From positions 1 to 24,280 of the IMG/VR virus record IMGVR_UViG_3300042369_000219: DNA of 24,280 bases. One strand, written 5' to 3'. The stretch is from a virus. A program made the position numbers and the translations under genes. This document shows positions 17,799 to 23,357 of this stretch, piece after piece. The notes beneath the pieces are model-generated. The model was not told where the DNA came from. It saw nothing but the letters and a program-made list of their open reading frames with translations, and did not search any database. Each line of letters starts with the position of its first letter. Within the stretch, counting starts at the first letter, position 1.

Positions 17799-18362
17799 AT
17801 GGATAAATTAAATCGTGCAGCTTCCATAGCTTTGATAATAGAAAAACACTACACGCATAAAGTGCCTAGCGGAAAAAGTCATTACGTTAACTTTGAAGAT
17901 TGTATAGTTGTGTGGTCTATACCCGCTAATAAAAATATTGCTAAGTTTTTACTGCCAAACGGGGGCACTGTTTGGGAGTTGTCAAGATTGTGGGCCCCGG
18001 ACGGGCACAGGCCTAATTTATTGACGCAAGCAATAAGCTACTCAGTAAAAATAATAAAAAAACTTGAGAATCCAGATATGTTGGTGAGCTATGCAGACCC
18101 AAACGTGGGGCATTTAGGAGGGGTATACCGCGCCGCATCATGGATATATCATGGGCAGAGTAGTGAATGTCGAGTATACCGAGATGCATTCGGCCAAACA
18201 GTTTCGCGTCGGGCTTTTCATTCTGGTAAACGGTCGCTTAGAAAAGCAGAAATAGAATTGTTAGGTTATAAAGAAGAAAAATTACCTGGAAAACATAGGT
18301 TTGTAAAACCGCTATTAAAAACGGCGCACCGGCAATTGCAGTTAAAATTGAAACCTTTATGA
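17799..18362 (+). CDS. mom: Mom-like DNA adenine modification protein (GNAT-fold)
   Basis: This 187-residue protein matches phage Mom-type proteins: HYTHKVPSGKSHY near 17-29, WSIPANKN at 39-46, ELSRLWAPDGHRPN at 60-73, the signature SYADPNVGHLGGVYRAASW at 97-114, then RRAFHSGKRSLRKAEIE and PGKHRFVKPL. In phage Mu, Mom converts adenines to N6-methylcarbamoyl-adenine and so protects phage DNA from many restriction enzymes. Counts on sampled 60-base lines here give about 28-38% GC against about 70% in the flanking polymerase gene, a sign of recent acquisition. No good ribosome site precedes the ATG; a TATACT lies at 17778-17783. The stop overlaps the polymerase start by ATGA. Assignment is from remembered motifs; the substrate is not shown. 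Confidence 0.75.
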   Translation: MDKLNRAASIALIIEKHYTHKVPSGKSHYVNFEDCIVVWSIPANKNIAKFLLPNGGTVWELSRLWAPDGHRPNLLTQAISYSVKIIKKLENPDMLVSYADPNVGHLGGVYRAASWIYHGQSSECRVYRDAFGQTVSRRAFHSGKRSLRKAEIELLGYKEEKLPGKHRFVKPLLKTAHRQLQLKLKPL

Positions 18363-21094
18363 TTTGGGTTGACTTTGAGACGAAGAGCGCCTGCGACCTA
18401 AAAAGCGCAGGCGTCTACAACTATGCGCAGAGCCTCAGCACAGAGGTTCTGTGCATGGCATATGCGTACGATGACGGCGAGGTCCAGATGTGGACCGGCG
18501 GCCCATTGCCTGACTTCACAGGCCACCAGATACGCGCCCACAACGCCGCTTTCGAGCGGCTCATCTTTTGGTACGTCCTCCAGCAGGACTACCCGCTGGA
18601 GCAGTTCTACTGCACCGCCGCGCAGGCCCGCGCCAACTGCGCGCCTGGCAGTCTAGAAGACGCTGGCCGGTTCGCCGGCGCGTCCATGCGCAAGGACCAT
18701 CGCGGTGGCCACCTAGTGCGCCAGTGCTGCATACCACCCTACAACACCGCGCTGCTCCCCGAATTGTTCGACTACTGCGCGCAGGATGTCCGCGCCATGC
18801 GCGCCATCAGTCAGGGCATGCGCGGTCTGTCCGACGATGAACTGCTCGACTACCATGTCAACGAGCGCATCAACGACCGTGGCGTGCTAGTCGATGTTGA
18901 GCTAGCACGTTCGGCCGTGCGCTACGCCAGCGCCGAGTTGATTGAGATACAGGACACTGTCGCCAAGGTGACGCAGGGCGCAGTGACATCTGTCCGTTCG
19001 CCCCGGATGCGCCAGTGGGTGCAAGACCGCGTCTCTCCTGAGCAGTTGGCGCTGATGACGGTCGAGGACAAGATCAGCATCGACAAGACCGTCCGCGCCA
19101 ACCTGCTGGCTTGCGACGATCTCGACCCGGATGTCCGCGAGGTTGTCCAGTCCGCTGACGATCTCTGGGCGTCGTCCGTTGCCAAGTTCGCCCGCATGGC
19201 GGCGCTGGCTGATGAGGAGGACCATCGCGTGCGCGGTGCGTTTGTCTTCAACGGCGGCGCTGCCACTGGCCGCTTGTCCAGCTATGGCCTGCAAGTCCAC
19301 AACTTCACGCGCAAGTGTGCCAAGGAGCCGCAGCAGGTGCGCGACTCGATGGTAGCAGACGCGCCCATCGTGCCGACTTACGGCAAGCGCGTTACCGATG
19401 TGCTCAAGAGCATGCTCCGGCCTGCGCTGATACCCGCACACGGCAAGCAGTTCGTCGTGGCCGACTGGTCGGGCATCGAGGCGCGGTGCAACCCATGGTT
19501 GTCGGGTATTGGCGACGAAGTGCTCAATGTGTTTCGCTCTGGCCAAGACATCTACGTTCGCGAGGCGTCGCTGATCTTCAAGACCGAGGATGTCACGCCT
19601 GACATGCGCCAGATAGGGAAAGTTGCGATCCTGAGTTGTTTTGGCCGTGATACCCGCGTGTTGACTAGTAACGGAGTCAAGGCTATAGTGGATGTTTCTT
19701 TAGCTGACCTTTTATGGGATGGTGTCGAATGGGTGAAACATCAGGGCTTGATAGCGCGGGGGCAACGCTCGACTTTATTGGTGGCGGGCGTCAATGTGAC
19801 GCCGGAACACCAGTTCTTGACGCCTTGCGGGTGGGTCGCGGCATCGAAACTCGGTTCAAACGAAAGTACCCTTTACCAAGCGTTGGTGATAGGTTCGGAG
19901 AACTTACCATCACCGGCTTTGAGCGCGGCACATCCGGCGCTTGCCCAGCGGTCATGGCCCGCGCCCAATGTTCTTGCGGCGCCCCTTCGCATCTGGTCCA
20001 CCTTTACAACTTACGCAAAGGTGCGTCTACGCGGTGTAACGTTTGCGCCAAGAAACAGTCCGGGCATTGGACAAAAAAGTATTGGGGCTACGCTGACATT
20101 TGCCCAGATGATTCGCATCGCCGCCGATTGCTGGGTCGGATATCTGCGTGCATCAACCGGTGCCACAACGTCAACGATTCAGGATTTCGGCATTACGGCG
20201 GCAGAGGCATCCATGTCTTTGAGCCTTGGAAAACAGACCGCCGCGCTTTCTTGGCCTATGTCATCGCCTTGGATGGCTGGGACACCCCGCGTCTGGAATT
20301 GGACCGGATTGATGTCGATGGCGGCTATGCGCCAGGCAATCTTCGGTTTATCACTCGGGCAGAAAACATGCTCAACAAGCGGCAAGTCGGGGCCATGCAA
20401 AGCCGAATCTTTGAGCTTGAGGCCCGTGTTCGATATCTTGAACAGCGGGCCGAGGGCGCGGTTCACGATTCTGTCGGATAGCGGTCCGCTGATTGCTCAC
20501 AACTGCGGCTACGGTGGCAGTGTGGGCGCCTTTGCCGCGATGGGCCGCAACTACGGCGTCCACCTGCCCGAGGCCGCTGCCAAGCGCACGGTGGACGCTT
20601 GGCGGCGCGCCAACCAGTGGGCCGTGCGGTACTGGCAGGCGCTGGAGTCGGCCTACATGCGCGCCATGCGCAACCCGAATCAAGAGTTCGTCGCTGGGCG
20701 CGTCACTTACCTGTTTGACGGCGTCCATCTGTGGTACGCGCTGCCCAGCGGCAGGGTACTATGCTACCCCTATGCGCGCTTCGAACCGGATGGTGTGTCC
20801 TATGCCAAGTGCGCTTGGAAACCCGCGCAAAACGCAACTGAGTGGCCCCGAGCGCGGCTCTGGAGCGGTCTGGCGGCAGAGAACGTCTGTCAGGCAGTGG
20901 CCAACGATCTGCTGCGGCACTCGCTGCGCCAGGTCGAGGATGTTGTGTTGACTGTCCACGATGAGATCGTTATCGAGACCGCTTCGCCTGACGTAGATGC
21001 GCTGCGCCAGGTGATGTGTACCCCGCCCGCTTGGGCGTCTGGCCTGCCGCTAGCGGTCGACATCAAAGTGATGGCGCGCTACGGCAAGCCCTAA
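18359..21094 (+). CDS. polA: Family A DNA polymerase precursor with intein
   Basis: The precursor has 911 residues; removing the intein (427-715) leaves a 622-residue polymerase. The 3'-5' exonuclease is at the N-terminus: DFE with D5/E7, HNAAFE, and CAQDVRA with D143. Polymerase motif A is VVADWSGIEAR (D369, E374), the O-helix motif B runs RQIGKVAILS (R417, K421) across the intein to CGYGGSVGAF (Y718), and motif C is LTVHDEIVIE (H867-E869). All catalytic residues look intact, so an active replicative enzyme is expected after splicing. No 5'-3' exonuclease domain is present. It follows the Mom-like gene by ATGA and is followed by a hairpin and the primase-helicase gene. The intein frame is covered in a separate entry. 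Confidence 0.9.
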   Translation: MIWVDFETKSACDLKSAGVYNYAQSLSTEVLCMAYAYDDGEVQMWTGGPLPDFTGHQIRAHNAAFERLIFWYVLQQDYPLEQFYCTAAQARANCAPGSLEDAGRFAGASMRKDHRGGHLVRQCCIPPYNTALLPELFDYCAQDVRAMRAISQGMRGLSDDELLDYHVNERINDRGVLVDVELARSAVRYASAELIEIQDTVAKVTQGAVTSVRSPRMRQWVQDRVSPEQLALMTVEDKISIDKTVRANLLACDDLDPDVREVVQSADDLWASSVAKFARMAALADEEDHRVRGAFVFNGGAATGRLSSYGLQVHNFTRKCAKEPQQVRDSMVADAPIVPTYGKRVTDVLKSMLRPALIPAHGKQFVVADWSGIEARCNPWLSGIGDEVLNVFRSGQDIYVREASLIFKTEDVTPDMRQIGKVAILSCFGRDTRVLTSNGVKAIVDVSLADLLWDGVEWVKHQGLIARGQRSTLLVAGVNVTPEHQFLTPCGWVAASKLGSNESTLYQALVIGSENLPSPALSAAHPALAQRSWPAPNVLAAPLRIWSTFTTYAKVRLRGVTFAPRNSPGIGQKSIGATLTFAQMIRIAADCWVGYLRASTGATTSTIQDFGITAAEASMSLSLGKQTAALSWPMSSPWMAGTPRVWNWTGLMSMAAMRQAIFGLSLGQKTCSTSGKSGPCKAESLSLRPVFDILNSGPRARFTILSDSGPLIAHNCGYGGSVGAFAAMGRNYGVHLPEAAAKRTVDAWRRANQWAVRYWQALESAYMRAMRNPNQEFVAGRVTYLFDGVHLWYALPSGRVLCYPYARFEPDGVSYAKCAWKPAQNATEWPRARLWSGLAAENVCQAVANDLLRHSLRQVEDVVLTVHDEIVIETASPDVDALRQVMCTPPAWASGLPLAVDIKVMARYGKP
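19637..20503 (+). other. Intein in the polymerase O-helix (289 residues, C427-N715)
   Basis: The intein begins at C427 with a block A sequence CFGRDTRVLTSNGVKAI. Block B is GVNVTPEHQF with the T481-x-x-H484 motif, followed by GWVAASKL. The C-terminal blocks are RARFTIL (F) and GPLIAHN with H714-N715 (G), and the +1 extein residue is C716. All splicing residues are present. Joining the flanks restores the continuous O-helix sequence LS-CGYGG, so the insertion sits in a catalytic motif, as usual for inteins. Recognisable splicing sequence covers about residues 427-500 and 689-715; the 188 residues between have no intein or endonuclease character in this frame and are instead coding for an HNH protein in another frame. 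Confidence 0.88.
19714..20481 (+). CDS. HNH homing endonuclease nested out of frame within the intein
   Basis: In the frame one base behind the polymerase (-1), an open frame encodes up to 255 residues. Residues about 47-225 are a typical phage HNH homing endonuclease: SVGDRFGELTITG, a zinc ribbon with C86-x-C88 and C108-x-x-C111, the HYGGRGIHVFEPW motif at 160-172, LELDRIDVDGGYAPGNLRFI (194-213) and NMLNKR. A short predicted coiled coil (FELEARVRYLEQR) ends it. Plausible starts are ATG 19714, ATG 19729 (GGGATGG upstream) or a later GTG/TTG near 19830; a stop lies at 19705. Such enzymes cut intein-less alleles and promote copying of the intein. The ORF lies entirely inside the intein (19637-20503). 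How it is translated is unknown. Confidence 0.8.
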   Translation: MGWCRMGETSGLDSAGATLDFIGGGRQCDAGTPVLDALRVGRGIETRFKRKYPLPSVGDRFGELTITGFERGTSGACPAVMARAQCSCGAPSHLVHLYNLRKGASTRCNVCAKKQSGHWTKKYWGYADICPDDSHRRRLLGRISACINRCHNVNDSGFRHYGGRGIHVFEPWKTDRRAFLAYVIALDGWDTPRLELDRIDVDGGYAPGNLRFITRAENMLNKRQVGAMQSRIFELEARVRYLEQRAEGAVHDSVG

Positions 21095-21120
21095 AAAAAA
21101 GGGCGCCGTGCAAGGCGCCC
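21093..21120 (-). terminator. Minus-strand intrinsic terminator at end of polymerase gene
   Basis: GGGCGCC (21101-21107) and GGCGCCC (21114-21120) form a perfect 7-bp stem with a 6-nt loop. On the minus strand this hairpin is followed by eight Ts (21100-21093), a textbook intrinsic terminator for leftward transcripts. In the rightward direction it lacks a T-run and could act as an RNA-stabilising or attenuating hairpin. Confidence 0.55.
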
Positions 21121-21137
21121 TAAAAGGAGTTTTCTAC

Positions 21138-23357
21138 GTGCTGAACTATATCGCATCTTTGGCAGTTGAGGGTGAAACTGCGTTGGTGGTGAAACAAAAA
21201 GACAACACTTGGCCGGCATATTTACCGGAAAAATGGCGCGGCGAGGCGTCGTGGTACTGCAATACCGGTAGTTTCATAGTGTCGAGATTCGTCGACGGTC
21301 GAGTGTCGGCATCTGCGTCTAACTGCACGCATTGTCTGGCGATGATGCTGGACGATATTGGCACCAAGAGCAAGACGCCGCCGCTGCCGCCGACATGGAT
21401 CATGGAAACGTCGCCGGGTAACTATCAGTATGGTTATGCGTTCAACGAACAACCAACGGTCGGCGAGTTTTCAGCCGCCATCAAGGCCATCGCTGCCGCC
21501 GGCTACACCGATCCAGGCGCCTGCAACCCGGTGCGCAATTTCAGACTGCCAGGCTCGATCAACCAGAAGAACGGGTTTATTTCGCGACTCGTTGAGTTCA
21601 CCCCCGACCGCGAGTACAGCGTGGGCGATATCTGCGCCGCGCTGGGCGTCACGCCAGGCGTGGCCGATACCGCCACGATGCGCCCGGTCGGCCTCGCAGA
21701 TGATGGCGATGATGACGTGCTGGCGTGGATTGCCGAGCGTGGCGACCTGTTGGAGAACGCCAACGGCGAGGGCTGGTGCGGCGTCGTTTGCCCCAACGCG
21801 GAGCAACACACGGATGGCAACGCGATGGGCCGCTACAGGCCCGTCAGCCGCGCCTATACGTGCTTCCATGGCCACTGCGTCGATGAGTGGAACAGCGCCC
21901 GGTACTTGACATGGGTCGCCGAGCAGGGCGGGCCTGACCACCAGCATGGCCTGCGCGACGAACTGCTAGCTGTTGTGATGGCTGGCGCGTTGGGCAAGAT
22001 ATCGCCGACGACTGCATTCCCCGATGAGACGGTCGAGATTATCCGCGAGGTCAACCGCAAAGAGATGGGCCGACTTGAGAAGGCCGAATGGTATGAGCGC
22101 TTCGCTTATATTATGAGCGACGATGCGTATTTCGACATGATGGAACGCCGCGAGATTATGCGCAAATCGTTTAACGCGGTGTTCGCGCATATACCGTGCA
22201 AGTCGATTCATGGTGAAGGAAAGACGAAAGTAGCCGCCAGCGTTTGCTACGATGAGAACCGTCAGGCCAAGGGCGCCCGCACGCTGCAAGGCGTGACTTA
22301 CGCCGCCGGCGAGTCGGTCCTTGCAACGATGGATGGCGCCGTTTTTGGCAACCGTTGGCGCGACGCTAGGCCGGCAACAACGGTTGGCGATGCGTCCCGC
22401 TGGCTTGAGCATGTCGAGCGCCTTATACCCGAGCAGTTTGAGCGCGAGCATGTGCTCGACGTGCTTGCGTATAAGCTGCAGCACGCGGATAAAAAAATCA
22501 ACCACGCCGTGCTGCATGGCGGGTTGCCAGGGTCAGGCAAAGACACGCTCTACGCGCCGTTTTTGTGGGCTATCGGTCGGTCGAACGTATCCATTGTCAA
22601 GAACGAAGAATTGTCGTCGTCGTGGGGGTACGCGTTGGAAGCCGAGGTCATGGTTATCAACGAGCTCAGACAAGCGGAAGCAAGGGATAGACGGGCGATG
22701 GAAAACGTCCTCAAGCCCATCATTGCAGCGCCGCCTGAATACCTGCCCGTCAACCGCAAAGGGTTGCACCCCTATAACGCCTTGAACCGCATATGGGTCT
22801 TGTGCTTTTCGAACGAGCGCGCCGCCATATCCATCCCCAGCAACGACCGCCGGTGGTTTTGTGTGTGGTCCGACGCGCCCCGCATGACCGACGCCGAAGG
22901 CGCGTCGATGTGGGCATGGTACGAACGCGGCGGCAACGCCATCGTTGCCGGGTATCTGGCGTCGCGTGACGTGTCGGCGTTCCTGCCAGGCGCGTCGCCA
23001 CCAATGACCGAGGCGAAGGCCATCATGGTCGAACGCGGTCGCAGCGCGCACGAAGAATACCTGCAATTGCTCATCGAGGCGCGTCAAGACGTGTTCGCGC
23101 CGGGAGTGCTGGCCGGCCCGTGGCATGCCATCTGCGATGCGCTGACGCAACCGGGGCAGCATCGGATTCACCCCAGCGCGCTTATGCACGCCCTGAACGA
23201 AGCCGGGTGGCAGGACATGGGGCGCGTGCATTCGCGGGAGCACGCCACCAAGCGGCAGATATTCGTCGCCGCCGACATGGCCGCGAAATACACCAAGTCC
23301 CAGCTACGCGATATGGTAGAGGCGCCAGCGGCGCCTACGGTGTTGCGAGCGGTCTAA
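21138..23357 (+). CDS. Primase-helicase (RepB-type primase, zinc finger, DUF5906-type ATPase)
   Basis: The GTG at 21138 has an AAGGAG 8 nt upstream and gives 739 residues; a GTG at 21108 lies in the hairpin and is unlikely. The N-terminus resembles RepB-type archaeo-eukaryotic primases (TWIMETSPGNYQYGYAF at about 86-102, RNFRLPGSINQKN). A zinc-binding segment follows at about 214-247 (WCGVVCP... and TCFHGHC). The C-terminal half is an SF3-like/DUF5906 helicase with Walker A GGLPGSGKDTL (K468), Walker B VMVINE (E509) and SNERAAISIPSNDRRWFC. Such fused proteins prime and unwind DNA in phages with family A polymerases. It ends the rightward block and overlaps by 4 nt the stop of a leftward frame. 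Confidence 0.82.
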   Translation: MLNYIASLAVEGETALVVKQKDNTWPAYLPEKWRGEASWYCNTGSFIVSRFVDGRVSASASNCTHCLAMMLDDIGTKSKTPPLPPTWIMETSPGNYQYGYAFNEQPTVGEFSAAIKAIAAAGYTDPGACNPVRNFRLPGSINQKNGFISRLVEFTPDREYSVGDICAALGVTPGVADTATMRPVGLADDGDDDVLAWIAERGDLLENANGEGWCGVVCPNAEQHTDGNAMGRYRPVSRAYTCFHGHCVDEWNSARYLTWVAEQGGPDHQHGLRDELLAVVMAGALGKISPTTAFPDETVEIIREVNRKEMGRLEKAEWYERFAYIMSDDAYFDMMERREIMRKSFNAVFAHIPCKSIHGEGKTKVAASVCYDENRQAKGARTLQGVTYAAGESVLATMDGAVFGNRWRDARPATTVGDASRWLEHVERLIPEQFEREHVLDVLAYKLQHADKKINHAVLHGGLPGSGKDTLYAPFLWAIGRSNVSIVKNEELSSSWGYALEAEVMVINELRQAEARDRRAMENVLKPIIAAPPEYLPVNRKGLHPYNALNRIWVLCFSNERAAISIPSNDRRWFCVWSDAPRMTDAEGASMWAWYERGGNAIVAGYLASRDVSAFLPGASPPMTEAKAIMVERGRSAHEEYLQLLIEARQDVFAPGVLAGPWHAICDALTQPGQHRIHPSALMHALNEAGWQDMGRVHSREHATKRQIFVAADMAAKYTKSQLRDMVEAPAAPTVLRAV

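Follow-up and report, generated by a model that had tools for sequence, protein, structure and literature searches.

Can a homing endonuclease be encoded inside an intein without being part of the intein reading frame? This question is raised by a DNA polymerase gene in a virus of bacteria (IMG/VR record IMGVR_UViG_3300042369_000219), of which positions 1 to 24,280 were analysed and are hereafter called the window. The original prediction had proposed that one DNA segment of this gene gives a splicing polymerase precursor in one frame and, in the -1 phase (19714-20481), a free-standing HNH homing enzyme. Our analysis supports this reading, although with a different start codon for the HNH ORF. 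Moreover the arrangement is not unique to this phage but is typical of a whole, apparently undescribed class of viral inteins with two phases. The features of the locus are collected in Table 1.

Table 1. Features of the polymerase locus and its two neighbouring genes (window coordinates).
Coordinates	Strand	Feature	Supporting evidence
17799-18362		Mom-like DNA modification protein gene, directly upstream of the polymerase	Pfam PF25680, E=1.5e-25
18359-21094	+	Family A DNA polymerase precursor, 911 aa (622 aa if the intein is removed)	Pfam DNA_pol_A, E=4e-16; phrog_17, phrog_10285
18359-19636	+	N-extein	Homologous to intein-free and intein-bearing phage polymerases
19637-20503	+	Intein, 289 aa, C1 (codon TGT at 19637) to terminal HN, followed by C+1 (TGC at 20504)	C1, T55, H58, D266, H288 and N289 invariant in related inteins; predicted HINT fold, best PDB match gp41-1 intein 6qaz
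19637-19927	+	N-terminal splicing domain (intein residues 1-97)	AlphaFold pLDDT about 95; intein 3rd codon position most variable up to about 19848
19661-19666	+	-35-like box TTGACT of a candidate internal promoter, in the codons of intein Leu9-Thr10	Promoter scan, comparison with synonymous expectation
19684-19689	+	-10-like box TATAGT of the candidate promoter, 17-bp spacer, in the codons of Ala16-Ile17-Val18	Promoter scan, comparison with synonymous expectation
19729-20481	+	HNH endonuclease ORF in the -1 frame, 250 aa; start ATG 19729-19731 overlaps intein Glu31-Trp32	phrog_374, E=2.6e-29; stop-depletion edge at this codon; AlphaFold mean pLDDT 82.8
19849-20426	+	Stretch where selection acts on the HNH frame	HNH 3rd codon position most variable; variants in the Jerseyvirus group
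19934-20410	+	Intein residues 100-258, predicted disordered linker, the intein-frame reading of the HNH gene	pLDDT below 50 for 100-250 and 253-258
20414-20503	+	C-terminal splicing domain (residues 260-289)	pLDDT about 95; intein 3rd codon position most variable again after 20427
20504-21091	+	C-extein, first residue Cys	Continuous frame; comparison with related polymerases
21108-23357		Primase/helicase-like gene, directly downstream of the polymerase	phrog_1156, E=8e-28

We first asked whether both reading frames are real. The intein frame is open as part of one continuous 911-codon frame and has, besides its terminal residues, TPEH at 55-58 and VFDILNSGPRARF at 264-276. The third frame, in contrast, has 20 stops across the intein. 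In the -1 phase, the match to the phrog_374 HNH family covers the zinc ribbon and the HNH core (residues 57-224 of the ORF as originally predicted), and CxC...CxxC, DR, Y, N and N are invariant. No relevant Pfam match was found for the HNH, and neither a sequence search of the PDB nor a Foldseek search with the HNH model gave anything significant. The intein has a GC content of 0.557 against 0.631 in the exteins, in keeping with a foreign origin.

When we used the intein and the HNH separately as tblastn queries, we found the same DNA in the same phages, namely Salmonella, Escherichia, Shigella, Sodalis, Vibrio and Pseudomonas phages and EBPR siphovirus 2; Jerseyvirus, Kagunavirus and Dhillonvirus are among the genera showing the arrangement. 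In the members inspected, both frames are open over about 200 codons at a GC content of 43-60%, with the same phase. A second set (APSE-1 and -5, Caulobacter RW, Gardnerella AB1 and IMG/VR contigs) has the HNH in the +1 phase. After profile scans of IMG/VR we classified 172 unique inteins, and of the 165 that lie in one ORF, 102 have the HNH at -1, 58 at +1, 5 have none, and none has it in frame. The scan in which only the splicing domain served as query gave 44, 22, 5 and 0, respectively. A scan of bacterial genomes with the HNH profile gave 23 loci, of which 22 are nested out of frame (7 at -1, 15 at +1), from Erwinia, Acetobacteraceae, Taishania, Elusimicrobia, Clostridia, Synergistales, Actinomycetaceae and others. 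Two inteins (loci L070:2501-3418 and L098:2501-3469) have intact HNH frames but stop codons in the intein frame, which could be due to sequencing errors or to conversion to split inteins.

Overlapping open frames could nevertheless be fortuitous. When synonymous codons of the HNH frame were shuffled, the intein frame remained stop-free with P between 0 and 0.27 per member, and the combined P over 18 divergent members was about 1e-26, a value that is too optimistic since the members are related. Of 49 HNH relatives scored as lying outside inteins, only one has an open alternate frame, and this is an APSE-2 fragment that is in fact nested but lost its intein start at the record end. Codon-position variability gives a map in three parts: up to an offset of ~212 the intein 3rd position varies most, from 212 to ~790 the HNH 3rd position, which is intein position 2, varies most, and after that the intein 3rd position does so again. 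The map is repeated in 86 members of the -1 class and, with its own phase, in 53 members of the +1 class. Within Jerseyvirus and its nearest relatives, 92 core variants are intein-changing and HNH-silent, against 28 the other way. Thus in the middle the HNH is selected while the intein frame is merely kept open; an alignment in the intein frame likewise showed that this frame is poorly conserved there. Interestingly, the predicted structures are complementary. AlphaFold orders the intein only outside the HNH-coding part, and Foldseek matched the ordered part to the gp41-1 intein, followed by DnaX, DnaB and RecA inteins. The HNH model, on the other hand, is disordered for its first 34 residues, which overlap the N-domain of the intein, and is mostly confident afterwards. 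Each protein is predicted to be ordered where its own frame is selected.

Where does the HNH frame begin? In 87 members of the -1 class, stops in the HNH frame match a codon-usage expectation until the codon formed by the last base before Trp32 of the intein (26 seen and 16 expected in the five codons before), and are then nearly absent (3 seen and 120 expected over the next 40 codons). This NTG codon is ATG or GTG in 79 of 88 members, ATG being found in most members, and in the window it is the ATG at 19729. A start at 19714, as originally predicted, at the conserved NTG near 19831 or at other codons was rejected, since the stop-free region begins sharply at 19729 and the later codon is CTG in Jerseyvirus. 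The Glu/Lys codon before Trp32 ends in A more often than elsewhere (47:14 against 353:371, P=2.5e-5), and in the window Glu is GAG 26 times and GAA 5 times in the exteins, yet GAA here. In the +1 class the edge lies after block B. We found no selection for a Shine-Dalgarno sequence beyond what the intein codons give, but overall these observations point to internal initiation rather than frameshifting.

A scan for promoters found a sigma-70-like candidate in intein block A, 40 bp before the ATG. At the same place and spacing, members of the -1 class score above the synonymous expectation (8.5 against 5.2, P about 1e-12; P=2e-7 in a diverged subset), while the +1 class shows nothing. The 5′ region is generally AT-shifted; however, Leu9 is TTG in 53 of 79 members against 24% elsewhere, and TTG is favoured over TTA, so AT-richness alone does not explain the signal. 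Significance was not reached in seven independent genome loci (P=0.3), and the class members are related, so P values overstate independence. We consider the promoter likely in many members, but not proven.

Related phages also point to mobility. Jerseyvirus ER11 and buks, Kagunavirus ULINTec2 and Dhillonvirus JL1 have the empty site, reading GKA/CELGLGY without an insert. SETP3 and fEg-Eco19, which belong to different genera, share 98% of their intein DNA but only 82% of the N-extein, and Dhillonvirus inteins are 83% identical to these with exteins at 66%. The hosts of the inteins of this class include two polymerase sites and phage helicases. A tree of the splicing domains, although based on few columns, places the -1 class on one side of a branch (96/94), so the phase has switched rarely.

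Taken together, the evidence leads us, with good confidence, to regard the element as a mobile intein of a class in which the homing endonuclease is entangled with the intein instead of being fused to it. The arrangement itself is near certain. The intein frame would be translated through as part of the polymerase precursor, its two ends folding into a splicing domain and its middle forming a passive, disordered linker kept only free of stop codons, while the same middle DNA, read in the -1 frame, encodes a free-standing HNH endonuclease. Separate expression of the latter is likely, by internal initiation and, in this class, probably often from its own promoter. In the absence of expression, splicing or cleavage data, protein splicing is inferred, as is the homing activity by which the enzyme presumably cuts intein-free polymerase alleles and so copies the whole intein with its own gene. 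The HNH family has Asp-Arg (D192-R193) where the canonical motif probably has a His, so cutting activity is assumed from family membership.

Turning to ALTERNATIVES and known systems, -1 ribosomal frameshifting from the polymerase, giving a polymerase-intein-HNH fusion, survives best but remains unlikely. It would suit the -1 phase of this class and the lack of Shine-Dalgarno selection, but the stop-free region begins exactly at an NTG codon, an A before TG is favoured beyond codon usage, no slippery heptamer was seen there, and the sister class uses +1. It is also improbable that the HNH frame is a decaying relic in an intein that no longer homes. Five short inteins do lack the HNH, and the 168-aa mini-intein of Streptococcus phage Javan422 (locus L029:3001-3504) keeps only a zinc-ribbon remnant in its +1 frame, as a deletion derivative; however, purifying selection in the HNH frame is strong, stops are nearly absent and the intein has moved between phage genera. 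An intron is more doubtful still. HNH genes are often intron-encoded, and gp38/gp39 of Sodalis phage SO-1 carry the note of a type I self-splicing intron, but no group I or II match was found in the window or in six relatives, SO-1 included, at relaxed thresholds, the splicing-domain residues are invariant, the HINT fold is predicted with high confidence and the insert is open in the host frame. Chance overlap, of the kind common in GC-rich genes, is only moderately unlikely for this window alone (56% GC, P 0.005 to 0.01), but it is very hard to reconcile with members at 43-49% GC, the combined shuffles, the relatives outside inteins and purifying selection on both frames in complementary segments. 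Finally, even though the HNH sits exactly where intein endonucleases usually sit, between blocks B and F, a sequencing or assembly error that moved it out of frame is refuted by many independently sequenced phages, including SETP3, SO-1 and APSE-1, and bacterial genome contigs, in nearly all of which the intein frame stays open through the HNH region.

We did not find any published intein with an out-of-frame endonuclease in the CC-licensed PMC literature searched, although precedence in Gorbalenya 1998 (on non-canonical inteins) or Dassa et al. 2009 is not excluded. Canonical large inteins share the splicing blocks A, B, F and G, an endonuclease between B and F, and mobility with empty-site alleles, but their endonuclease (LAGLIDADG, or HNH as seems to be the case in the Synechocystis GyrB intein; Dalgaard et al. 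1997) is fused in frame, whereas here it is at -1 or +1 in all 160 HNH-bearing one-ORF members and would be a separate protein. The ShiLan domain and other hidden HNH insertions in phage methylases (PMC11855218) are also encoded out of frame inside a host gene, whose own reading is open and lacks a recognisable fold; their authors found no intein or intron features, while here a complete predicted splicing domain surrounds the HNH. In fractured genes with split inteins (Dassa et al. 2009) the endonuclease is likewise encoded separately from the intein halves, but in the present case the intein is one contiguous ORF and the endonuclease overlaps it. Group I introns with ORFs similarly carry a free-standing homing enzyme in a self-removing insert, but the insert described here lacks an intron RNA signature and would be removed, if at all, as protein. 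In the engineered STALEMATE system (PMC12455656), an intein-containing meganuclease gene overlaps the Im9 frame, and overlapping frames make loss of one product costly through the other; that system is synthetic and differently arranged, while the present overlap is natural and fully nested.

It is somewhat more likely than not that these elements form a distinct, widespread class of inteins in which the homing endonuclease is always encoded out of frame, in two fixed phases, and is made from its own start codon and, in the -1 class, from its own promoter written into the codons of splicing block A. Because indels that break the nuclease also break an essential polymerase, the overlap may shield the nuclease from the usual decay of homing enzymes, and what keeps such enzymes from decaying becomes a testable question. 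Such a design shows a way to uncouple the timing and dose of the homing enzyme from the essential host protein while keeping them genetically inseparable, as a natural counterpart of engineered gene entanglement. Many phage genomes, including those of much-studied Salmonella and E. coli phages, would thus carry a homing gene that nearly all the annotations we read miss. It had, however, been half-seen before, as gp39 of SO-1 is labelled as an HNH in a type I intron, and APSE-1 and APSE-2 are annotated with a hypothetical P46 within P45.

Related loci suggest a continuum with split inteins. In another intein in phage polymerases (site YYAAHTGRWGG/; loci L037:1218-2239, L079:855-1873 and L059:1125-1912), IntN, HNH and IntC lie in three different frames, IntC seeming to start at MLVPVYDI, so that the HNH overlaps the halves of a split intein. 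In two more loci (L155:678-1925 and L158:599-1847), IntN and IntC are separated by a GIY-YIG-like ORF in another frame, as judged by eye from the translation, and IntC seems to be a separate ORF. Interestingly, the polymerase loci L090, L150, L168, L187 and L281 have two inteins of the family studied here, a -1 type upstream and a second one downstream, which is of the +1 type in those where its HNH was classified.
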